From assembly GCA_001898625.1 (NCBI GenBank), contig MKUP01000025.1:186001-250000 (forward strand): a DNA stretch of 64,000 nucleotides. Direction: 5' to 3'. Below, one piece after another: positions 38,070-48,059 of the stretch (within the stretch, counting starts at the first letter, position 1; each line of letters starts with the position of its first letter). The DNA comes from Burkholderiales bacterium 67-32. GTDB taxonomy: Bacteria > Pseudomonadota > Gammaproteobacteria > Burkholderiales > Burkholderiaceae_B. The position numbers and the translations under genes were made by a program. Under the pieces are notes generated by a model that did no database searches, was not told the origin of the DNA, and saw only the letters and a program-made list of their open reading frames with translations.

Positions 38070-38825
38070 ATGTCCCAGTTCGCCAAAGTCCTCCAGGTCC
38101 TGGACCTCTTCTCCGAAGCCAGGATCACGCTGGCGGCCGAGGAGATCGCCGACCTGCTCGACGTCTCCCGGCCCACCGCCTTCCGCTACGTCAAGCAACT
38201 ATGCGAGACCGGCCTGCTGGCGAAGATCGCGGGGCGCTACGCGCTGGGCGCCAAGATCATCGAACTCGACTACCGCATCCGGCGGTCCGAACCCATCCTG
38301 CTGGCCAGCCGCGCCAGCATGCGCGAACTCGCCCAGCGCACCGCCATGACGGTCGTGCTGTGCAACATCTACGGTGACGAGATCGTGCACAGCCACCATG
38401 AGCTCGTGGGCGAACTCACCCCCATGAGCCTGGACCGCGGCCACCTGATGCCGCTGTTCAAGGGCGCCGCCTCGGCGGTGATCCTGGCCAACCTCCAGAC
38501 CGCGCGCCTGAAGCGGCTGTACGAGCGCCACAAGGCCGATGCCGAGGTGCGGGCCATCGCCGGCGACTGGCCGTCCTTCGCCCGGCACTACAAGCGCATA
38601 CGCAAGGATGGCCACTACGTCTCGCGCGAGGAGATCGACCCGGGCGTCATCGGCATCGCGGCGCCCATCTTCAACGATGGGCGCCACGTCGTGGGCGCCA
38701 CCACCCTGGTCTACGAGAAAAAGCGCGAGAAGCTGGTGAACGAGGAAGGCTATGCCGAACTGGTGCGCCACTGCGCCGCCGCGGTGACCCAGGAGATCGC
38801 CGCCGCGGCGCAACGCGCTACTTGA
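38070..38825 (+). CDS. IclR-family transcription regulator
   Basis: 251 residues: winged HTH at the N-terminus (AAEEIADLLDVSRPTAFRYVKQLCETGLL) and the IclR effector domain from about residue 75. It ends the VOC-hydrolase operon and probably controls it through the inverted repeats at 36065-36127. Its last eight bases overlap the convergent dctM gene, leaving no room for a separate terminator for either. Confidence 0.9.
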   Translation: MSQFAKVLQVLDLFSEARITLAAEEIADLLDVSRPTAFRYVKQLCETGLLAKIAGRYALGAKIIELDYRIRRSEPILLASRASMRELAQRTAMTVVLCNIYGDEIVHSHHELVGELTPMSLDRGHLMPLFKGAASAVILANLQTARLKRLYERHKADAEVRAIAGDWPSFARHYKRIRKDGHYVSREEIDPGVIGIAAPIFNDGRHVVGATTLVYEKKREKLVNEEGYAELVRHCAAAVTQEIAAAAQRAT

Positions 38826-40539
38826 AGTCGGCGTTCGGGTCCTTGCTCTCCTGTCCCTGTCCCTGTCCTTGCCCTTGCGCGGGCTCTTCGCCGTAGACGC
38901 CCCCGCCTCCGTAGCTTTCGCCGTACGTGCTGTCCACCTCGATCTTGACGCTGCCCGGGTCCACCACGACCTGGTCGCCCTTGTAGTGCATCACCAACCC
39001 CGGCACCAGCATCACGATGGCCACCATCAACAGCTGGATCACGATGAAGGGAATGGAGCCCCAGTAGATCTGGCCGGTGGTGACCTTGGCGATGCGCTTG
39101 CCCGTGACCTTGTCCAGGTAGTCCTCCTTGGGCGCCACCGAACGCAGGTAGAACAGTGCGAAGCCGAAGGGCGGATGCATGAACGACGTCTGCATGTTGA
39201 CCGCCAGCAGCACGCCGAACCAGATCAGGTCTATGCCCATCTTCTCGGCCACCGGCCCCAACAGCGGCACGATGATGAAGGCCAGCTCGAAGAAGTCCAG
39301 GAAGAAGGCCAGCACGAAGGTCAGCACGCTGACGACGATCAGGAAGCCCCATTGGCCGCCGGGCACCGAGGTCAGCAGGTGCTCGACCCACAGGTCGCCG
39401 CTGACGGCCCGGAAGGTCAGGCCGAACACCGTGGAACCGATCAGGATGAACACCACGAAGCACGACAGCTTGGTCGTGGTATCCATGGCCTGCTTGAGCA
39501 GGTTCAGCGACAGGCGCTTGCGGACGAGCGCCATCGCAATCGCCCCCACCGCCCCCATCGCGCCGCCCTCGGTCGGGGTGGCCACGCCGATGAAGATGGT
39601 CCCCAGCACCAGGAAGATCAGAAACAGCGGCGGGATCATCACGAAGGTGACCCGCTCGGCCAGCGCCGACAGCCACCCCAGCCGCAGCAGCTTGTTGGCC
39701 AGCGCGATGACGAAGGCCGACACGCCCCAGATCAGCATGGTCAGCACGATGCGCTCGTCCACCGGCGCGGTGCCGTGTTCAAGATAGTCGCCGACCAGCG
39801 CGGCGATCCCCGCCGAGATCAGCATCAGCACCAGCAGCGAACGGCCGCCGCGGGTCCCGTTGGGCTCCTGGAAACGCCGGGCCTCCTCGGGCAGGGCCGG
39901 CGCGCTGGCGGGCCGGAACAGCGACGCCAGCACCACGTACACGATGTAGGCGCCGGCCAACAGGAAGCCGGGCAGCATCGCGCCCCGGTACATGTCGCCG
40001 ATCGACCGGCCCAGTTGGTCGGCCAGGATGATCAGCACCAGCGAAGGCGGGATGATCTGCGACAGCGTGCCCGAGGCCGCGATCACGCCCGAGGCCAACC
40101 TGCGGTCATAGCCGTAGCGCAGCATGATGGGCAGCGAGATCAGCCCCATGGAAATCACCGAGGCCGACACCACGCCCGTGGTGGCCGCCAGCATCGCGCC
40201 GACGAACACCACCGCGATGGCCAGCCCGCCCCGCAGGGACCCGAACAACTGCCCGATGGTCTCGAGCAGGTCCTCGGCCATGCCGGAACGCTCCAGCACC
40301 AGCCCCATCAAGGTGAAGAAAGGCACCGCCAGCAGCGAATCGTTGGCGATGATGCCGAACACCCGCTGCGGCAGCGCCTGGAACAGCACCGGGGTCAGCA
40401 GGCCCAGTTCGATGCCGATCAGCGCGTACAGCATGCCGTTGGCGGCCAGCGCGAACGCCACCGGGAATCCCAGCAACAGGAAGACCACCAGGTTGGCGAA
40501 CATGATCGGGGCCAGGTTCGCGATCAGGAAGTCGATCAT
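38818..40539 (-). CDS. TRAP transporter large permease (DctM/TakM type)
   Basis: Inner-membrane subunit of 573 residues with 12 or more helices that couples sodium influx to uptake. Family blocks include GFPVAFALAANG near residue 24, VLERSGMAEDLLETIG near 80 and SFMHPPFGFALFYLRS near 485. It belongs to the longer DctM class that goes with a large DctQ. It starts one base into the dctQ stop (TGATG). The last 40 residues form a hydrophilic tail with YGGGGVYGEE and five Gln-Gly repeats encoded by an imperfect hexamer repeat; this tail overlaps the end of the IclR gene. Confidence 0.9.
   Translation of the reverse strand: MIDFLIANLAPIMFANLVVFLLLGFPVAFALAANGMLYALIGIELGLLTPVLFQALPQRVFGIIANDSLLAVPFFTLMGLVLERSGMAEDLLETIGQLFGSLRGGLAIAVVFVGAMLAATTGVVSASVISMGLISLPIMLRYGYDRRLASGVIAASGTLSQIIPPSLVLIILADQLGRSIGDMYRGAMLPGFLLAGAYIVYVVLASLFRPASAPALPEEARRFQEPNGTRGGRSLLVLMLISAGIAALVGDYLEHGTAPVDERIVLTMLIWGVSAFVIALANKLLRLGWLSALAERVTFVMIPPLFLIFLVLGTIFIGVATPTEGGAMGAVGAIAMALVRKRLSLNLLKQAMDTTTKLSCFVVFILIGSTVFGLTFRAVSGDLWVEHLLTSVPGGQWGFLIVVSVLTFVLAFFLDFFELAFIIVPLLGPVAEKMGIDLIWFGVLLAVNMQTSFMHPPFGFALFYLRSVAPKEDYLDKVTGKRIAKVTTGQIYWGSIPFIVIQLLMVAIVMLVPGLVMHYKGDQVVVDPGSVKIEVDSTYGESYGGGGVYGEEPAQGQGQGQGQESKDPNADFK
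38851..38880. repeat. Imperfect hexanucleotide repeat in the 3' end of dctM
   Basis: Five tandem hexamers, CTGTCC three times then TTGCCC and TTGCGC, encode Gln-Gly dipeptides in the DctM tail. Gain or loss of a unit would keep the frame. Confidence 0.7.
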
Positions 40540-41162
40540 CAGCGGCCTCCCTGCGTGCTGCCATGGGCGGCGGCCTCGCGGGCCTGCGCCTCGCGGGCGA
40601 TTTCCTCGGCCAGTTCCTCCTCGGCGGTCTTGCCCCGGTCCCGTTCGCGCGGATCGGGTCCCTTGCCCATCAGGAAGGCCACGCACTTGATCAGGTGCGA
40701 CAGACCGGCCAGCACCAGCAGGAAGAAACCGACCGGGATCAGCAGCTTCACGGGCCAGCGCACCAGGCCGCCCGGATTGGAGGACTGTTCGTCGGTCACG
40801 AAGGAATCGACGAACACGGGCCAGGACAGCCACATGATCAGCACGCATGCCGGCATCAGGAACAGCACGATCCCCAGGATCTCTATCCAGATCTGGGTCC
40901 GCTGCGACAGCTTCTGCGCGACGATGTCCACGCGCACGTGTTCGTTCTTCAACAAGGTATAGCCCGCGGCCAGCAGGAAGATGGCGCCGAACAGGTACCA
41001 CTGCAATTCCAGCCAGGCGTTCGAACTGGTGTGGAAGACCTTGCGCACGATGGCATTGCCCGCGCTGACGAGCACCACCACCAGGGTCAGCCAGGTGACG
41101 GCCTTGCCGACGAACTGGTTCAGCGCGTCGACCAGGCGGGAAAAGGCGAGGAGAGCATTCAT
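40539..41162 (-). CDS. TRAP transporter small permease (DctQ/TakQ type)
   Basis: 207 residues with four hydrophobic helices and the family block LQWYLFGAIFLLAAGYTLLKNEHVRVDI near residue 53. It holds DctP in contact with DctM. The C-terminal 45 residues are charged and Glu/Arg/Ala-rich, probably a cytoplasmic helix. Start at 41162 is chosen because it aligns with family N-termini; the open frame extends upstream through the intergenic hairpin. dctM follows with a one-base overlap. Confidence 0.87.
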   Translation of the reverse strand: MNALLAFSRLVDALNQFVGKAVTWLTLVVVLVSAGNAIVRKVFHTSSNAWLELQWYLFGAIFLLAAGYTLLKNEHVRVDIVAQKLSQRTQIWIEILGIVLFLMPACVLIMWLSWPVFVDSFVTDEQSSNPGGLVRWPVKLLIPVGFFLLVLAGLSHLIKCVAFLMGKGPDPRERDRGKTAEEELAEEIAREAQAREAAAHGSTQGGR

Positions 41163-41184
41163 GGTTGTGGACCGATGCTGAATG

Positions 41185-41210
41185 AAAAACGCCTGGCGCG
41201 AGGCCAGGCG
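41185..41210 (-). terminator. Intercistronic terminator/attenuator between dctP and dctQ
   Basis: On the minus strand a seven-base stem (CGCCTGG with CCAGGCG, 41190-41210) is followed by five U residues (41189-41185). It sits in the middle of the 109-base gap after dctP. A leaky terminator here would give more binding protein than membrane subunits. Confidence 0.72.
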
Positions 41211-41271
41211 GACGATTCCTGCTTCCTGTGCGTGGCGGGGAACCTGGTAGGTAGCGCCACGCTGCTTCCCT

Positions 41272-42360
41272 TTACTTGCGAATGGTGGACATGTAGCCGT
41301 CGAAGTTGCCTTCGGCCACCCGGAACCATGGCAGCACGTTGCCGCGGAAGGCGACCATGCTGTCATAGACCTTCTTGAACTCGGGGCTCTTGGCGCTCAT
41401 CTCGGCATACAGCTTGTTGGACTCCGCATAGCAGGCGTCCATGACCGATTTCGGAAACGCTCGCAACTGCGCCCCCTGCGAGATCAGCCGGCGCAGCGCC
41501 GCCGGATTCTCGGCGTCGTACTTGGCGATCATATCGTTGGTGGCCGCGGCGCAGGCCTGGTCCAGCGCGGCCTGGTACTGCTTGGGCAGCTTGTTGTAGG
41601 CGTCCTGGTTCACGTACAGCGACACCTGCAGCGTGCCTTCCCACCAGCCGGGGTAGTAGTAGTTCTTGGCGACCTTGTGGAAGCCCAGCTTTTCGTCGTC
41701 GTACGGGCCGATCCACTCGGCCGCGTCGATGGTGCCCTTCTCGAGCGCTGGATAGATGTCGCCGCCGGCGATCTGCTGCGGCACCACCCCCAGGCGGGAC
41801 AGCACGGCGCCCGCGAAGGCGCTGACGCGGAACTTCAGTCCCTTCAGGTCCTCGACCGACTTGATCTCCTTGCGGAACCAGCCACCCATCTGGGTGCCGG
41901 TATAGCCGCAGGGGAAGTTGACGACGTTGTACTTCTTGAAGACCTCGCGCAGCAGCTTGAGGCCGTCGCCGTGGCGCATCCAGGCGTTCATCTGGCGCGT
42001 GTTGAGCCCGAACGGCACCGCCGCGTCGAAGCTGAGCGTGGGATCCTTGCCGTAGTAATAATAGGAGGCGCTGTGCCCGCATTCGATGGTGCCGTTCTGC
42101 ACGCTGTCGAGCACCTGCAGCGCGGGCACGATTTCCCCAGCCGGAAAGGCGCGGATCGTAAACTTCCCACCCGTGGCCTCGGACACGTACTTGGCCACGG
42201 CTTCGCCGCCGCTGTAGATGGCATCGGCGCTGCGGGGAAAGCTGGAGGCAAGGCGCCAGGTCACGGTAGGCGCGTCCTGGGCGAATACTGGGGCTGCCAA
42301 CGTCACGCCGCCAGCGGCGGCGCCCACGGTTGCCTTGGTCAGAAAGGAACGGCGGTGCAT
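41272..42360 (-). CDS. TRAP transporter binding protein, TakP-like (2-oxoacid type)
   Basis: Periplasmic receptor of 362 residues. It starts MHRRSFLTK, a twin-arginine signal, and is cut near VFAQDA. From memory it is very close to Rhodobacter TakP, the alpha-keto acid receptor: shared blocks include MGGWFRKEI near residue 175, GVVPQQ(I/V)AGGDIYPALEKGT and GPYDDEKLGF near 230. I therefore predict pyruvate or another 2-oxoacid as ligand. GGGAG precedes the ATG at 42360. A sigma-54 promoter lies 75-90 bases upstream. Confidence 0.88.
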   Translation of the reverse strand: MHRRSFLTKATVGAAAGGVTLAAPVFAQDAPTVTWRLASSFPRSADAIYSGGEAVAKYVSEATGGKFTIRAFPAGEIVPALQVLDSVQNGTIECGHSASYYYYGKDPTLSFDAAVPFGLNTRQMNAWMRHGDGLKLLREVFKKYNVVNFPCGYTGTQMGGWFRKEIKSVEDLKGLKFRVSAFAGAVLSRLGVVPQQIAGGDIYPALEKGTIDAAEWIGPYDDEKLGFHKVAKNYYYPGWWEGTLQVSLYVNQDAYNKLPKQYQAALDQACAAATNDMIAKYDAENPAALRRLISQGAQLRAFPKSVMDACYAESNKLYAEMSAKSPEFKKVYDSMVAFRGNVLPWFRVAEGNFDGYMSTIRK

Positions 42361-42433
42361 GTGCGGGTCTCCCGGGTGGTTGTAACCCACGGGCGGCACC
42401 GGTCCCGTCAAAGGTGTCACGAGACTGCAACCG

Positions 42434-42450
42434 ATGCAAAACAAGTGCCA
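42434..42450 (-). promoter_or_regulatory. Sigma-54 promoter of the TRAP operon
   Basis: On the minus strand TGGCAC, five bases, TTGCAT. This matches the -24/-12 consensus (TGGCAC-N5-TTGC) with the GG and GC dinucleotides ten bases apart. The predicted start of transcription leaves a leader of about 65 bases before the dctP ATG. DctD, encoded at 25137-26480, is a sigma-54 activator. Confidence 0.8.
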
Positions 42451-42514
42451 CCCATAGGTAGGGTAAACACATGATAGCGGCAGGCTCGAGCACTGCGTTC
42501 CTAAGGGAAACCCT

Positions 42515-42534
42515 GATTCCCTGAAAAGGGAATC
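42515..42534. promoter_or_regulatory. Inverted repeat upstream of the sigma-54 promoter, candidate DctD site or hairpin
   Basis: GATTCCCT and AGGGAATC around GAAA. It is centred about 100 bases upstream of the predicted start of the TRAP transcript, a usual distance for an enhancer site. It also lies 15 bases after the Bug gene stop, so a terminator role is the alternative; there is no clean U-run. Confidence 0.5.
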
Positions 42535-42548
42535 GCCATGCACCACGT

Positions 42549-43523
42549 TCAGTCCGCGCCTATCCTGGCCTCCCGGACCACCCGCTTCCATTTCACCAGT
42601 TCGGATCGCAGCAGCTCTCCCAGCTGCTCCGGCGTGCTGGGTTCAGCCAGGGCCCCGAGCGACGCGAACTGCTGCTGGACCTCCGGCAGCCGCAGGATGG
42701 CATCGATCTCGTCGTGCAGGCGCGCGACGATCGCCGGCGGCATGCCCGCGGGGCCGAACACGCCGGTCCAGACGTCGACCTCGCCCTCGGGCAGCCCCAG
42801 CTCGCGCAGGGTGGGAACGTCGGGCAACAAGGGACTGCGCCGGGCGCTGGTGATGGCGAGCGGGCGCACCTTGCCCAGCCTGGCCTGGGGCGCCGAGGTC
42901 AGCACCAGGTCGAACATGGCGTCGACGTGACCGCCCAGCAGATCGTTCAGGGCCGGCGCGCTGCTCTTGTACGGGACGTGCAGCAGCGGAATGCGCGCGG
43001 CGCTCTTGAGCAGTTCCCCCGCCAGGTGATTGGACGTGCCCGCCCCGGCCGACGCATAGGTGATGGGCTGGGCGCGCGACTTCGCCAGCGCCAGGAACTG
43101 CGAGAAGTCCGCCGCCGGCAGCGAAGGATGGACCACCAGCACCAGGGGTAGCGAGTTCACCAGCGAGATGGGCGTGAAGTCCTTGACCGGGTCGAAGTCC
43201 ACCCGGTTGATGAGCGGATTCATGACCTGGGAACTGACGCCGCCATACAGGATGGTGTAGCCGTCGGGCGCCGCCATCGCGGCGTGCTTGACGCCGATGG
43301 CGGTGCTGGCCCCGGGCCGGTTCTCCACGATCACGGGTTGGCCCAGCCGCTGGCCGAGCTTCTGGGCCAGCGCCCGCGTCAGCACATCGGCGGTGCCGCC
43401 CGGCGCGAAGGGCACGATGAAGCGGATCGGCCGGTCGGGATAGGGCTGTGCCCGTGCGCCGGGCGAGGCCATACAGGTGATCGAGATCCCGATTGCCGTT
43501 TGCATGCATAGGGTGCGTAACAT
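42549..43523 (-). CDS. Bug/TctC-family solute receptor
   Basis: 324-residue periplasmic receptor with a signal peptide ending GARAQ and the Bug blocks IRFIVPFAPGGTADVLTR, VENRPGASTAIG and PYKSSAPALNDLLGG. GAGGAT precedes the ATG at 43523. It lies 84 bases downstream of the di-iron protein gene on the same strand, beyond a GC-rich hairpin, so it may be the uptake receptor for that pathway. Ligand unknown. Confidence 0.92.
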   Translation of the reverse strand: MLRTLCMQTAIGISITCMASPGARAQPYPDRPIRFIVPFAPGGTADVLTRALAQKLGQRLGQPVIVENRPGASTAIGVKHAAMAAPDGYTILYGGVSSQVMNPLINRVDFDPVKDFTPISLVNSLPLVLVVHPSLPAADFSQFLALAKSRAQPITYASAGAGTSNHLAGELLKSAARIPLLHVPYKSSAPALNDLLGGHVDAMFDLVLTSAPQARLGKVRPLAITSARRSPLLPDVPTLRELGLPEGEVDVWTGVFGPAGMPPAIVARLHDEIDAILRLPEVQQQFASLGALAEPSTPEQLGELLRSELVKWKRVVREARIGAD

Positions 43524-43568
43524 GGTCGTATCCTCAAGAGCCGGTGGACAGCGCGCGAGACGTCGGCA

Positions 43569-43604
43569 GCGGCGGCCGAGCTCCTTGCGGGAGCCGGCCG
43601 CCGC
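43569..43604. terminator. Long GC-rich hairpin after the di-iron protein gene
   Basis: GCGGCGGCCG pairs with CGGCCGCCGC, and inside it GCTCC pairs with GGAGC, giving 15 pairs with one bulge. It starts four bases after the stop codon at 43608 on the minus strand. No U-tract follows, so it probably reduces expression of the Bug gene or stabilises the message. Confidence 0.6.
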
Positions 43605-43607
43605 GGT

Positions 43608-44522
43608 TCACAGCGTGTATTCGGGCAGGTCTATGCCCAGTTGGGCCGACTTGCTCCGGATCTCGGCCAGCGTGGACACGAAGGCCTCGTGCTCGATGTC
43701 GGGAGGCGCCGCCCCCAGGCCGGCCTTGGCCACGACAAGGTCGAGCCGGGCGAACAGGTCCTGCTCCTCGTTGACGTTGGACGACGAGTGGAACCCGCCC
43801 AGTTCGATATTCTCGATGACATCGATCATGGCCGTCCTCACGTTCTCGCGCACCTCGTCCGAGACCTGCGGCAGACGATACGACAGGTACTCCCAGCCCA
43901 TGCCGATGTGGCGGACCTCGTCGGCCAGGATGCGGCCCAGGACGGCCCGCGCGACGGGGTCGGTGGTGTGGTGATAGCGGACGCGGAAGATCTCGACCGC
44001 GAAGTATTCGCTGACACAATGCCAGCACGCCAGCACGGCCTCGGGGGTGTAGTCCGGATTCATGCCGCGTTCGCGCAGGCCCGCCACCAGACGCTTGCGC
44101 GGCGCACCTTCCGGCGGCTCGGACAGATAGCCTCCCAGCTTCTCGGCCATCATGTAGGAAGCCTCGATGTGCTTGGCCTCGTCCATGAACTTGGTCGCCA
44201 GGGCCAGCTTGATCATGCCGGGCCGGTCCCCCTCGAAGGCGAACCGCAGCAGCACGGTGGGCGATTCGGCCAGGCCGGTGTATTCGCTCCAGGCGCGCCG
44301 GCTCCAGAAGACCCGCGCAGCGTACAGCTCTTCCTCGGTGTACTTGCCCAGGTCCAGCTGGTTCCAGGGAATGTCCGTGACCGGATCCCAGTTCGATCCC
44401 TTGGCCACGGTCCAGATGCGTTCGACGCGGGGCAGCATCTCCCCCAGGTTCAACGGAAACCGCTGCTCGCGGATTCCGGGAAAGCCGGTGACGGGAATGA
44501 AAGACGACGGCTGTGCGGACAT
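43608..44522 (-). CDS. Ferritin-like di-iron carboxylate protein, possible oxygenase
   Basis: 304 residues, mostly helical. It has the four-helix di-iron pattern: Glu80 or Glu86 in WSEYTGLAES, then Glu115-x-x-His118 (DEAKHIEA), then Glu172 or Glu177, then Glu202-x-x-His205 (DEVRHIG). This is the layout of R2-like oxidases and di-iron N-oxygenases; no radical-transfer Tyr signature of ribonucleotide reductase is evident. AAGGAG lies six bases before the ATG at 44522. It is divergent from ridA-tetR-hydrolase, and both promoters share one operator sequence, so it belongs to that pathway. The reaction is unknown; oxidation of an aromatic or nitrogen compound is my inference. Confidence 0.75.
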   Translation of the reverse strand: MSAQPSSFIPVTGFPGIREQRFPLNLGEMLPRVERIWTVAKGSNWDPVTDIPWNQLDLGKYTEEELYAARVFWSRRAWSEYTGLAESPTVLLRFAFEGDRPGMIKLALATKFMDEAKHIEASYMMAEKLGGYLSEPPEGAPRKRLVAGLRERGMNPDYTPEAVLACWHCVSEYFAVEIFRVRYHHTTDPVARAVLGRILADEVRHIGMGWEYLSYRLPQVSDEVRENVRTAMIDVIENIELGGFHSSSNVNEEQDLFARLDLVVAKAGLGAAPPDIEHEAFVSTLAEIRSKSAQLGIDLPEYTL

Positions 44523-44552
44523 CTTGGCTCCTTGTGATTCCGTTTTTTCATA

Positions 44553-44604
44553 ACTAACCAACTGATTAGTTAGTAGTCTAGAAATCATGGGGAAGCCGTG
44601 TCAA
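44553..44604 (-). promoter_or_regulatory. Promoter of the di-iron protein gene with abutting TetR operator
   Basis: Minus strand: TTGACA (44604-44599), 18 bases, TAGACT (44580-44575), then at once the operator 44574-44553, whose ends ACTAAC and GTTAGT are inverted. Plus-strand core TAACCAAC-N4-TAGTTA occupies 44555-44572. Confidence 0.72.
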
Positions 44605-44627
44605 GAAAATTCTTACAGCGATGATCT

Positions 44628-44675
44628 TTGACACGATCAATGGGTGCTGCTTAGAATTAACCAACCAGATAGTTA
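44628..44675 (+). promoter_or_regulatory. Promoter of ridA-tetR-hydrolase with abutting TetR operator
   Basis: Plus strand: TTGACA (44628-44633), 18 bases, TAGAAT (44652-44657), then at once TAACCAAC-N4-TAGTTA (44658-44675). This is the same 14 fixed bases as in the divergent promoter, in the same strand orientation. A bound TetR dimer would cover the start of transcription. Confidence 0.75.
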
Positions 44676-44697
44676 TTTAATGAACAGGGAGACCAGC

Positions 44698-45078
44698 ATG
44701 ACCACCAAGACACCCCTTGGACCCTCGGGCCGCCCCTACTCCCAGGCACTGGACGTGGCCGGCGGCAAGCACATGGTCTTCGTATCCGGCCAACTGGCGC
44801 GAGCCGATCCGGAGCATGCCCATCATCCCGGCGACCTCGGCCGGCAGGCCCGCGAAATCTTCGCCAACATGGACGCGCTGCTGCGCGAGGCGGGAGGCTC
44901 GCTGGCCGACGTGGTCAAGATCACGGCCTTCCTGACGACGCTGGACGGCTATGCGGACTATTCCGCGATCCGCCGCGAAGTCTTCGCCGATCCGCTGCCC
45001 GCCAGTTCCACGGTGCAGGTCTCGTCCCTGGTCACGCCCGGATGCCTGATCGAGATCGAAGCCATCGCGATACTATGA
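44698..45078 (+). CDS. RidA/YjgF/RutC-family protein lacking the catalytic arginine
   Basis: 126 residues from the ATG at 44698 (AGGGAG before it); an upstream in-frame ATG is less well placed. The Rid core is present: FVSGQLA near residue 28, KITAFLTTLDGYADYSAIR near 75, and IEIEAIAIL at the end with Glu121. Where RidA has the imine-deaminase arginine in PARS, this protein has PASS (Ser103). I therefore place it in the Rid branches without Arg105, whose reactions are mostly unknown. First gene of an operon whose stop overlaps the tetR start as ATGA. Confidence 0.88.
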   Translation: MTTKTPLGPSGRPYSQALDVAGGKHMVFVSGQLARADPEHAHHPGDLGRQAREIFANMDALLREAGGSLADVVKITAFLTTLDGYADYSAIRREVFADPLPASSTVQVSSLVTPGCLIEIEAIAIL

Positions 45079-45821
45079 ACGCCATTGGCCGCCCCCTTCG
45101 CAAAGAGCCCTCCATGGCATCACGCACTCCGTCATCCCGCCAGAAGGCCGCCCCCGCCCCGCGCAAGGCCGTGCGCGACAGCGTCGCCACCCGCAGCGCG
45201 ATACTCGACTCGGCCGAGAAGATATTCGCCCGCGACGGGCTGCGCAGCACCCGCACCGAGGAAATCGCCGCGGGCAGCGGCGTCACCAAAGCGATGATCC
45301 ACTATTACTTCGACACCAAGGAAGCCCTGTACCAGGCGGTGCTCGACCGCGTGTTCCAGGACCGCGAACAGGGCATGGATTTCAGTTCCCTGCGCAAGCT
45401 TCCTCCCGTCGATGCGCTGCATGCCTTCGTGGAAAGGCTGCTGCAGCAGATGGTCGCCAAGCCCCACCTCGGTCCGCTGTTCGCGCTGGAGAACATCCAG
45501 AACGACGGCGCGTTCTACAACCGCAATGGCGGCAAGCTGTACCGGACGCTGGCCGACATCCTCGAGCGCGGCGTGGCGGACGGCTCGTTCCGGCAGCAGG
45601 ACCCCGGCCATGCGGCCGTCAACATCATGGGCGCCTGCGTGCACTTCTTCAACGTGTCCTCGAACATCCGGACACTGTGGCCCAAGGACAAGGCCGACTC
45701 CACCGCGTCGATGATCAATCACTGGCGCGCCGTGGTCGAATTCGTCATGTGCGCGGTGCTGGCCCCGCCCCCGGGTCCGCGCGCCAGGAATCCGCGCCAG
45801 CCGCGGCTGGCGGCCCTATGA
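45075..45821 (+). CDS. TetR-family repressor of the di-iron/Rid/hydrolase module
   Basis: About 248 residues if started at the ATGA overlap with ridA (45075); an alternative ATG at 45114 (MASRTPSS) removes 13 residues. A basic N-terminal extension precedes the HTH (RTEEIAAGSGVTKAMIHYYFDTKEALY). The C-terminal half resembles the RutR-type ligand domain. Two copies of a palindromic site lie just downstream of each divergent promoter and are the natural targets. ATGA overlaps tie it to ridA and to the hydrolase, so the repressor is made with the enzymes. Confidence 0.88.
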   Translation: MNAIGRPLRKEPSMASRTPSSRQKAAPAPRKAVRDSVATRSAILDSAEKIFARDGLRSTRTEEIAAGSGVTKAMIHYYFDTKEALYQAVLDRVFQDREQGMDFSSLRKLPPVDALHAFVERLLQQMVAKPHLGPLFALENIQNDGAFYNRNGGKLYRTLADILERGVADGSFRQQDPGHAAVNIMGACVHFFNVSSNIRTLWPKDKADSTASMINHWRAVVEFVMCAVLAPPPGPRARNPRQPRLAAL

Positions 45822-46753
45822 ACGCGGCTCAAGCGGTGGACGCGCTGCTGGCGCGCATCGGCCCGGCCTGGGGCGACGATATCCGGACGCATCGGGACCA
45901 GGTGCTGGAGGCCTATGCGCCCTTGCTGGAAGCGACGGCAGCGGCGGGCCCGGCCTGCACGCGCGACCTCGCCTACGGACCCGACCCGCGCCACGTCCTG
46001 GATCTCTACCGTGACGCGGCCTTTGCCGGCCCCCTGCCCGTCGTGGTGTTCATGCATGGCGGCGCCTACGTGCGGGGGGACAAGGACATCGCCCCGCGCG
46101 TGTACGCGAACGTCCCCACCTGGTTCGCCCGGCAGGGCTACCTGGGCGTCAACCTGGAATACCGGCTCGCCCCCGGCGCGCCCTATCCCGGCGGCGCCGA
46201 GGACCTGGGGCGCGCGCTGGCGTGGATGCGGGCGAACATCGGCGCGCACGGCGGCGACCCCGACAGGATGTTCGTGATTGGCCATAGCGCGGGCGGTACG
46301 CACGTCGCCCACCATGCCCTGGACCCGCGGCTGCCTTATCGCGGCGAGGGACTGCGGGCAGCGGCCATCGTGTCGGGCCGGCTGCGTGCCGATGCGCTGC
46401 CGGCCAACCCCAACGCCGCCGGGGTGCGCGCGTACTTCGGCAACGACGAGAGCCGGTACGAGGCGCTGTCCCCGGTCAGCATGGCGACGCCGGACGCTCT
46501 CCCGCTTTTCGTGGCGATCGCCGAATACGAGAACCCGCTGCTGGACGTCTACGGCGCGGAGTTCTTCCACCGCCTGCGGGCCTGCGGACACCGGGCGAAC
46601 CAGTTCCTCATGCTGCCGCGCCACAACCACATGTCCATCATGGCCCACTTCGACACGGGCGAGGACTTCCTGGGGCGCCAGCTTTGCGGCTTCTTCGCGC
46701 GGCACGGCGGCGTCCGCCAAACCATGCACCACGCGCAATGGCAACCGCATTGA
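45818..46753 (+). CDS. HSL/kynurenine-formamidase-like alpha/beta hydrolase
   Basis: 311 residues. The oxyanion motif HGGAYVRGDK near residue 82, nucleophile elbow GHSAGG near 150 and the C-terminal histidine in PRHNHMS near 268 define an esterase/lipase of the HGG class, which includes arylformamidases. It overlaps the tetR stop as ATGA (45818-45821). It is the last gene of the module and may hydrolyse an amide, formamide or lactone produced by the other enzymes. Its last 116 bases run under the convergent MATE gene, an unusually long overlap. Confidence 0.85.
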   Translation: MNAAQAVDALLARIGPAWGDDIRTHRDQVLEAYAPLLEATAAAGPACTRDLAYGPDPRHVLDLYRDAAFAGPLPVVVFMHGGAYVRGDKDIAPRVYANVPTWFARQGYLGVNLEYRLAPGAPYPGGAEDLGRALAWMRANIGAHGGDPDRMFVIGHSAGGTHVAHHALDPRLPYRGEGLRAAAIVSGRLRADALPANPNAAGVRAYFGNDESRYEALSPVSMATPDALPLFVAIAEYENPLLDVYGAEFFHRLRACGHRANQFLMLPRHNHMSIMAHFDTGEDFLGRQLCGFFARHGGVRQTMHHAQWQPH

Positions 46754-48059
46754 TGGCGCCGTAGACCACCAGCGCCAGCGCCTGAGCCGCGAAAACCCCC
46801 GCCAGCCCCATCCCCGCCGCGATCGCGGCCATCCCGCCGATCGCGCTCAGGGCCAGGCGCACGACGCTGCCGGTCACCGGCCACAGCAGCCGCCCCGCGC
46901 CCTGCGATGCGAAGTAGAGCGCCAGCCCCGCGCCAAAAAACCCATAGACAGGCCCCACGATGCGCAGATAGAGCGATCCGGTGGCCAGCATGTCGGGCTC
47001 GCTGCCGAACATCGACAGCCAGGTGTGAGGGAAAGAAGCGGCCGCCAGGCCTATGGCCTCCGCCACGACGAAGGCGCATCCCGCGCCGACCCAGGCGATG
47101 CGCAGCGCCCGGTCGTGCCGGCCCGCCCCCATCGCCGCGCCCACCATGACGACCATGGGACCGCCCAGGCCGAATACCAGTGGCACGAGCAAGTATTCCA
47201 GGCGCGAGCCAGTGCCGTAGCCCGCGATAGCGGCCGGGCCGAAATGGCCGGTCAGCGCAGTGGCGATGCTGATGGCGATGTTGATCGCCACCGTGGAAAC
47301 CGCGGCGACCAGCCCCACGCGAAGGATGTCGCGGAAAAGCGGCCAGCGCAGCGTCCAGCCCTTCCAGGACAGGCGGACGATGCCGCGGCCCGAACAAAGA
47401 AAGGCCAGCAGCGCGACGCTTCCCGCGGCATAGTAGACCACCAGCGCAATGGCTCCGCCGGCCACGCCCAGGCCCGGCACCGGTCCCCAGCCGAAGATCA
47501 GCAGGGGCGACAACGGCACCAGCATCGCTGTCCCCGCACAGGTGACCGCCGCGGGCAGGCTCATGTTGCCAGTGCCGCGCACGACCGACGCCAGCGAATT
47601 GAACAGCCACACCAGCGCCGCCGCGCCGAAGATCCAGCGCGAATACTCCAGCGCCGCCTCGAGCGAGCCCCCCGAGCCGCCCATGTGTCCGTACAGCCAG
47701 CGGCCGCCCGCCAGCCCGGCCACCGTAAAGAACAGGCTGAACAGCAATCCCACCACGATCGCGTGGCGGACCAGCGAATCGGCATCCTCGCGCCGGCCGC
47801 CTCCCAGCGCCCGGGCGATCGACGAGGAAATACCGCCTCCCACCGCGCCGCCGGACAGCATCTGCATCAACATGACGGTCGGAAACACCAGAGCCACGCC
47901 GGCCAGCGCGTCGGTGCCGAGCTTTCCGACGAAATAGGTCTCGATGATGCCTGCGCTGGCCTGAGCGGCCAGCACCAGCGTGTTGGGCACCGCCAGCCGC
48001 AGCAGCGTGGAAACGATGGGGGCCTCGATGAGGCGGCGCGTGCGCGGATCGATGGACAT
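46638..48059 (-). CDS. MATE-family efflux transporter
   Basis: 473 residues with 12 predicted helices in two halves. N-terminal features TLLRLAVPNTLVLAAQASAGIIETYFVGKLG and the second-half GYGTGSRLEYLLVPLVFGLG are typical of MATE (NorM/DinF) sodium or proton antiporters for drugs. It follows the MFS gene by 13 bases, third in tetR-MFS-MATE. The last 30 residues are Arg/Pro-rich and out of character; this tail is what overlaps the convergent hydrolase gene, so the protein may have been extended by loss of an earlier stop. Confidence 0.88.
   Translation of the reverse strand: MSIDPRTRRLIEAPIVSTLLRLAVPNTLVLAAQASAGIIETYFVGKLGTDALAGVALVFPTVMLMQMLSGGAVGGGISSSIARALGGGRREDADSLVRHAIVVGLLFSLFFTVAGLAGGRWLYGHMGGSGGSLEAALEYSRWIFGAAALVWLFNSLASVVRGTGNMSLPAAVTCAGTAMLVPLSPLLIFGWGPVPGLGVAGGAIALVVYYAAGSVALLAFLCSGRGIVRLSWKGWTLRWPLFRDILRVGLVAAVSTVAINIAISIATALTGHFGPAAIAGYGTGSRLEYLLVPLVFGLGGPMVVMVGAAMGAGRHDRALRIAWVGAGCAFVVAEAIGLAAASFPHTWLSMFGSEPDMLATGSLYLRIVGPVYGFFGAGLALYFASQGAGRLLWPVTGSVVRLALSAIGGMAAIAAGMGLAGVFAAQALALVVYGAINAVAIARGAWFGGRRRAARRSRKAGAPGSPRPCRSGP

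Follow-up and report, generated by a model that had tools for sequence, protein, structure and literature searches.

Positions 42,549 to 46,753 of a 64,000-nucleotide stretch of Burkholderiales bacterium 67-32 (contig MKUP01000025.1, positions 186,001 to 250,000; this whole stretch is called the window) carry genes for a solute receptor, a di-iron protein, a Rid-family protein, a TetR-family regulator and an alpha/beta hydrolase. Do these five genes form one system, and if so, for what chemistry? An earlier interpretation (the sequence-only reading) had proposed a module resembling the Rut pathway of pyrimidine breakdown, with a di-iron enzyme in place of its flavin oxygenase. The analysis reported here points to a real, conserved and uncharacterised module that is probably oxidative and catabolic, and a probability of roughly 0.5 was assigned to an inducible, O2-using catabolic module comprising a di-iron oxygenase, a hydrolase and a Rid protein. 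The five gene types were recovered where they had been placed, with agreeing coordinates, strands and Pfam matches:

42549..43523, minus strand: Bug/TctC-type periplasmic solute receptor (PF03401, 2.1e-63; 214.9 bits against a cut-off of 27), 84 bp downstream of the di-iron gene
43608..44522, minus strand: R2lox/AurF-like di-iron protein, 304 aa, with candidate ligands E80, E115, H118, E172, E202 and H205
44698..45078, plus strand: Rid-family protein (PF01042, 2.2e-25; 89.4 bits against a cut-off of 27.3) with Ser at the catalytic Arg position
45075..45821, plus strand: TetR-family regulator (PF00440, 2.7e-13), joined to the Rid gene by an ATGA overlap and holding a further in-frame ATG at 45114
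45818..46753, plus strand: alpha/beta hydrolase with HGG and GHSAGG motifs (PF20434, 5.7e-21; PF07859, 3.1e-17), joined to the TetR gene by an ATGA overlap

The grouping exceeds chance. In the genus of the window, Pigmentiphaga (nearest named relative P. kullae K24, 98%), orthologs of the TetR protein, of the Rid protein (the latter 93-100% identical) and a close hydrolase ortholog (at least 89%) were found in the same 5 of 11 genomes, the window's own included, as the di-iron gene. Across the family, relatives of the di-iron protein at E <= 1e-10 were present in 22 of 268 genomes (own included), and in a sample of the order a match at E <= 1e-30 was present in at least 7 of 399 (own included), a lower bound set by scoring at most five candidates per genome. 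A scan of genome contigs yielded 108 relatives, with 80 loci kept, from Alpha-, Beta- and Gammaproteobacteria and three Actinomycetota contigs. Partners were sought up to 10 kb either side of the di-iron gene with profiles built from the first loci found; the loci are related to one another, so that the counts are not independent, and several contigs end near the di-iron gene. Hydrolases of the window's type (HydA) or of a formamidase-like type (HydB) were scored strictly at 150 bits or more and GGT at 250 bits, giving a hydrolase in 58 of 80 loci (27 HydA, 28 HydB, 3 GGT); with GGT accepted at E <= 1e-5 the figure is 67 (55 HydA or HydB and 12 GGT, 3 of which pass 250 bits). A Rid gene was present in 38 loci, together with a strict hydrolase in 33, and both partners recurred beside di-iron relatives of 25-40% identity. 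The window's own 6.66-Mb genome contains 34 Rid genes that pass the cut-off, a density at which about 0.1 would be expected per 20 kb; no probability is attached to this comparison, the loci being related. The same genome holds five HydA relatives at E <= 1e-30, the window hydrolase among them.

The five-family co-occurrence proposed as a check by the sequence-only reading was therefore borne out for the di-iron protein, the hydrolase and, often, the Rid protein, but not for the other two families. The window-type TetR was found only in the genus set, to which its search was confined, and other lineages show LysR or GntR regulators. The adjacency of the Bug gene is uninformative: the count of Bug/TctC genes in this genome is at least 150, and 16 of the 30 Rid genes checked have one no more than 1.5 kb away. 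Elsewhere the clusters take two usual forms. Loci with tandem di-iron genes commonly run GntR, Liv binding protein, di-iron 1, di-iron 2, LivHMGF, HydB, Rid; those of a group termed clade B run LysR or GntR, di-iron gene, then a mixture of Rid, HydA, Bug, TRAP and GGT, with GGT replacing the hydrolase in some. HydA, HydB and GGT are thus three hydrolase types in one role-like position. An aldehyde dehydrogenase family was found in 10 of 80 loci and an iron-alcohol dehydrogenase family in 9; some of the clade B clusters carry them. Six further genome stretches were inspected, of which two repeated known loci (L082, L098) and one of the other four carried GGT. A Paraburkholderia plasmid held a tandem pair with Liv and Rid genes and no strict hydrolase match, and plasmid searches with two more family members gave that cluster, 65.6% identical to an Achromobacter query, and otherwise distant matches only.

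Within the window the genes are also linked by their control region (44523-44697), where two divergent promoter-like sites are accompanied by two 21-bp operator-like sites at the promoter starts:

44552..44572, no strand: operator-like site 1, an imperfect palindrome just beyond the -10 element of the minus-strand promoter
44575..44604, minus strand: promoter-like site of the di-iron and Bug genes (TTGACA-18-TAGACT; consensus match only)
44628..44657, plus strand: promoter-like site of the Rid-TetR-hydrolase genes (TTGACA-18-TAGAAT; consensus match only)
44655..44675, no strand: operator-like site 2, 76% identical to site 1 and overlapping the end of the plus-strand -10 element

Two promoter-like sites were found in 42300-46900 against a shuffle mean of 0.5, and both operator-like sites were kept in an alignment of five Pigmentiphaga-type sequences (window among them). 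The operator pattern was derived from the two sites, and its chance figure shows just that the window has no further such site. The layout fits repression of both divergent operons by the TetR protein. All five genes had been described as tied by ATGA overlaps and shared operators; the operator-like sites stand, and are conserved, but the two overlaps couple the plus-strand Rid-TetR-hydrolase genes only, the Bug and di-iron genes lying on the other strand with 84 bp between them and no such overlap.

The di-iron protein carries the motif series E, ExxH, E, ExxH (E80, E115/H118, E172, E202/H205), and none of the six ligands is lost in any of the 48 single-copy genes, which come from 47 loci and the window. 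Its AlphaFold2 model (mean predicted local distance difference test score, pLDDT, 89.7) was helical, and in a Foldseek search rows 1-23 were all R2lox (template modelling score, TM, by query 0.62-0.66; identity 15-18%), followed by PaaA/PaaC and R2 proteins. In a profile search of the PDB a designed helix bundle came top and R2lox second, the best match among natural proteins, with the ExxH motifs aligned. Both the di-iron motif and the modelling check proposed with it were upheld by this confidently predicted R2-like fold with conserved ligands, and we infer that the protein binds metal.

Its family was less easily assigned, no Pfam or NCBIfam model being reached at its cut-off. The AurF profile (PF11583) matched at 1.4e-4 and 21.6 bits, under the gathering score of 29.6, an encapsulin-ferritin model matched weakly (2e-6, 27.8 bits against a cut-off of 125), and the NCBIfam R2lox models did not reach E 0.001. 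In an alignment of 81 family members (A2), no Pfam profile matched more often than AurF, with 57 members at E <= 1e-3 and a best value of 3.7e-11, and some relatives beyond the window protein may pass its gathering score; the NCBIfam R2lox model matched 36 of 81 at E <= 0.001 (best 1.3e-6). R2lox proteins are known for a Val-Tyr crosslink and AurF for one additional metal ligand. The likeness to R2lox lies in fold, PDB profile matches and motif alignment, against a low identity and the unmet NCBIfam models; the likeness to AurF lies in the family-wide profile matches, against the sub-threshold score of the window protein and the absence of AurF from the best 50 of 688 Foldseek results. PaaA and PaaC of phenylacetyl-CoA epoxidase, a pair of one catalytic and one non-catalytic protein, share a similar fold and as a pair resemble the tandem di-iron copies of relatives, whereas the window gene is single-copy and no Paa partner genes were found in annotated module clusters. 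Neither a bacterioferritin (PMC5373536) nor AibH2, which differs in fold (PMC10401708), gave a lead. A very distant di-iron-like match lies elsewhere in the same genome (L002, G000:C11:178993-179532; 24%, E 5.6e-4), and two viral contigs (L179, L180) gave partial 27% matches to the family.

At the loci with several di-iron genes (L055-L086, L100), copies were counted by gene position, and all 33 contained exactly one that is degenerate and at least one that is complete. Ligand position 202 of the degenerate protein is K or Y in all 33, and position 172 is D in 30 of them; its gene lies downstream of a complete copy everywhere except at L100. Erosion has gone further in the three actinobacterial cases, one of which is split across two reading frames. 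Recurrent open reading frames without Pfam matches near tandem clusters may be spurious calls of a simple gene finder. In a tree of 117 di-iron rows the four Pigmentiphaga-type rows formed one group (99/97), deeply apart from clade B (100/100); their place beside both tandem copies (93/75) is not firm, given the midpoint root and long branches. The window thus combines a tandem-side di-iron enzyme with a hydrolase of the profile type found in clade B and in a flavin cluster described below. Judged by profile type, partner sets appear to have been re-mixed, and such re-mixing favours a functional link.

The Rid proteins of the module lack the residue on which deamination by their better-known relatives depends. 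At the RidA/RutC Arg position Ser or Ala was found in 39 of 39 aligned module Rids, the window's included, so that none keeps the catalytic Arg of RidA, Rid1-3 and RutC. PMC8113886 reports RutC R104A as inactive; PMC4433059 gives Ser at the Arg position for about 10% of RidA proteins and terms Rid4-7, which lack the Arg, mysterious; and both describe the functions of Rids without the catalytic Arg as unknown. In the window's own genome only 20 of the 30 Rid genes examined (of 34, the window's included) keep the Arg, and its loss is therefore not rare by itself.

This bears on the proposed kinship with Rut (RutABCDEFG, RutR). The regulator, Rid protein and hydrolase had been matched to the gene types RutR, RutC and RutD, an assignment that did not hold: RutR was the best NCBIfam match of the TetR protein, yet at 58 against 368 bits; RutC was the third match of the Rid protein, at 49.5 against 169.1 bits; and the list of 12 NCBIfam families that the hydrolase matches at E <= 1 does not include RutD. 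RutA was not found over cut-off, the best score in the whole genome being 63 bits against 498.3 (TIGR03612), and the amidohydrolase RutB reached at best 109.4 bits against 377.95 (TIGR03614). With sub-cut-off RutC and RutR matches, a Rid protein without the Arg, and neither RutA nor RutB over cut-off, membership of Rut was rejected. The module shares with Rut the plan of TetR regulator, oxygenase, hydrolase and Rid, with a di-iron protein where Rut has a flavin enzyme; it is Rut-like in plan, not in kinship.

A closer parallel was found within the genus. In the window's own genome (G000:C27:95800-99500, L134) a second cluster encodes a Bug receptor, an FAD_binding_3 monooxygenase, a HydA hydrolase (53% identical to that of the window) and a Rid protein, and Bug, FAD monooxygenase and HydA genes occur together at all nine loci of the genus whose HydA shows 51-53% identity (L134, L139-L146; own genome and eight others). 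Seven of the nine have a Rid gene. The clusters thus resemble the module in hydrolase type, Rid, Bug and gene order, and differ from it in that the FAD_binding_3 enzyme replaces the di-iron protein and all seven Rids keep the Arg. In the PDB the flavin enzyme of the own genome is nearest PnpA and HspB, a pyridine enzyme; no published description of the cluster was found. This sibling cluster offers the best support for a di-iron enzyme in the place of a flavin enzyme, and points to a general plan of oxygenase, hydrolase and Rid. The substitution suggested by the sequence-only reading thus has an unforeseen parallel in nine genomes.

The hydrolase had been called HGG-class, rightly: HGG and GHSAGG motifs are present, and are retained in most or all members. 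By sequence the window hydrolase (AlphaFold2 model, mean pLDDT 91.6) is nearest feruloyl esterase 4zrs (7.8e-44), also its best fold match (TM 0.80), with kynurenine formamidase 4e11 at rank 27 of the fold search. The one HydB examined matched a lipase, a putative esterase and, third, kynurenine formamidase 4e11 (1.3e-20). The substrate may accordingly be an amide or an ester. In congener G196 the hydrolase match has one in-frame stop in the aligned range, and the open reading frame caller gives a 347-aa frame.

Put together, the module could work as follows. The TetR protein would repress both divergent operons through the two operators at the promoter starts, and binding of the substrate or an intermediate would release them. 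A transporter, here represented by the Bug receptor (the weakest link), would import a small organic acid or amide, perhaps the nitrogenous or aromatic compound proposed by the sequence-only reading. The R2lox/AurF-like enzyme would activate O2 and oxidise it, perhaps opening a nitrogen-containing ring or hydroxylating next to nitrogen; the hydrolase would cleave the acyl product (amide, formamide or ester); and the Arg-less Rid would handle an unstable enamine- or imine-type product, passing an aldehyde or keto acid and ammonia to central metabolism. Several observations weigh against this scheme. A Rid gene is absent from 25 of the 58 loci with a strict hydrolase, and 12 of 80 loci have no strict hydrolase, Rid or transporter. 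No reductase was noticed among the recurrent neighbour families, not all of which were named. In three of the further stretches, from one genus and two of them sharing sequence, Bug genes are the sole partners near a divergent di-iron gene, and five other genus HydA loci (L135-L137, L147, L148) lack the flavin gene of the sibling cluster. Without the deaminase Arg, moreover, the Rid step may be other than deamination.

The same enzymes could act in the reverse order, the hydrolase freeing a substrate from an ester or amide, the di-iron enzyme oxidising the resulting acid or amine and the Rid protein guarding against a side product. The feruloyl esterase likeness of the window hydrolase speaks for this order, and GGT, where it replaces the hydrolase in clade B clusters, could equally act first; the examined HydB is close to a formamidase, however, and in the gene order of the sibling cluster a hydrolase of the window's type comes after the flavin monooxygenase, which is no proof of reaction order. 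We regard the reversed order as doubtful, if the most credible of the alternatives. Less credible again is N-oxygenation of an amine by a di-iron enzyme of the AurF type, with hydrolase and Rid processing nitroso, oxime or imine products: AurF is indeed the commonest Pfam match of the family, but the window protein stays below its gathering score, and the nearest solved folds are R2lox and PaaA/PaaC.

Readings that dissolve the module were judged far less probable. That the grouping is mostly chance is suggested by the abundance of Bug and Rid genes and by the frequency with which they adjoin one another; this explanation holds for the Bug gene, but the same 5 of the 11 Pigmentiphaga genomes share orthologs of the di-iron, TetR and Rid proteins, and hydrolase and Rid recur beside remote relatives, which makes it very unlikely for the rest. 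Hardly to be entertained is a role of the di-iron protein in iron storage or oxidative stress, its neighbours being unconnected with it. The weak encapsulin-ferritin match would favour it, whereas the predicted fold and length are R2-like, the operator-like sites are shared with the Rid-TetR-hydrolase genes, and hydrolase, Rid and transporter partners recur; iron storage was dismissed on fold and gene context. Equally implausible is a true Rut-type pyrimidine pathway with a swapped oxygenase, for which the common plan and the ranks of RutR and RutC could be cited, but which is opposed by scores far under cut-off, a Rid protein without the Arg essential to RutC, and a genome with no RutA or RutB over cut-off.

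Returning to the inducible oxidative module, a broader proposal is offered tentatively, at somewhat below even odds. A widespread, undescribed family of R2lox/AurF-like di-iron enzymes would start the breakdown of a nitrogen-containing compound in Proteobacteria, either as a lone enzyme (Pigmentiphaga and most of clade B) or, in tandem clusters that mostly carry Liv transporters, as a complete enzyme accompanied by a degenerate pseudo-enzyme. The product would be handled by interchangeable HydA, HydB or GGT enzymes and by Arg-less Rids, which would thereby acquire their first role in a pathway, and in Pigmentiphaga the module would be the di-iron counterpart of the flavin cluster. If so, di-iron oxygenases would gain a new catabolic branch with a natural complete/degenerate gene pair, Rids without the catalytic Arg would gain a testable role, and the flavin and di-iron sibling clusters of one genus would allow direct comparison of two oxygenase chemistries served by the same downstream enzyme types. 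A literature search limited to open-access papers brought up none recognisable, from titles and abstract starts, as describing this module.

Some neighbouring genes were left outside the module. TRAP transporter genes (38818-42357) adjoin it, with the same adjacency in 4 of 4 congener stretches; they were excluded, with no operator-like match near them, and tandem and Bug clusters are generally without them, other TRAP genes being found in marine-type clusters. AMP-binding ligases, present in 11 of 80 loci (E <= 1e-5), were likewise not counted as part of it. A further point in favour of an oxidative module comes from Variovorax and Vitreoscilla plasmids (L133, L181, L182). There, di-iron relatives of 24-25% identity lie among or near genes for coenzyme A-type aromatic breakdown, and in all three annotated regions examined the next gene encodes a 2Fe-2S protein, which may serve as electron donor.

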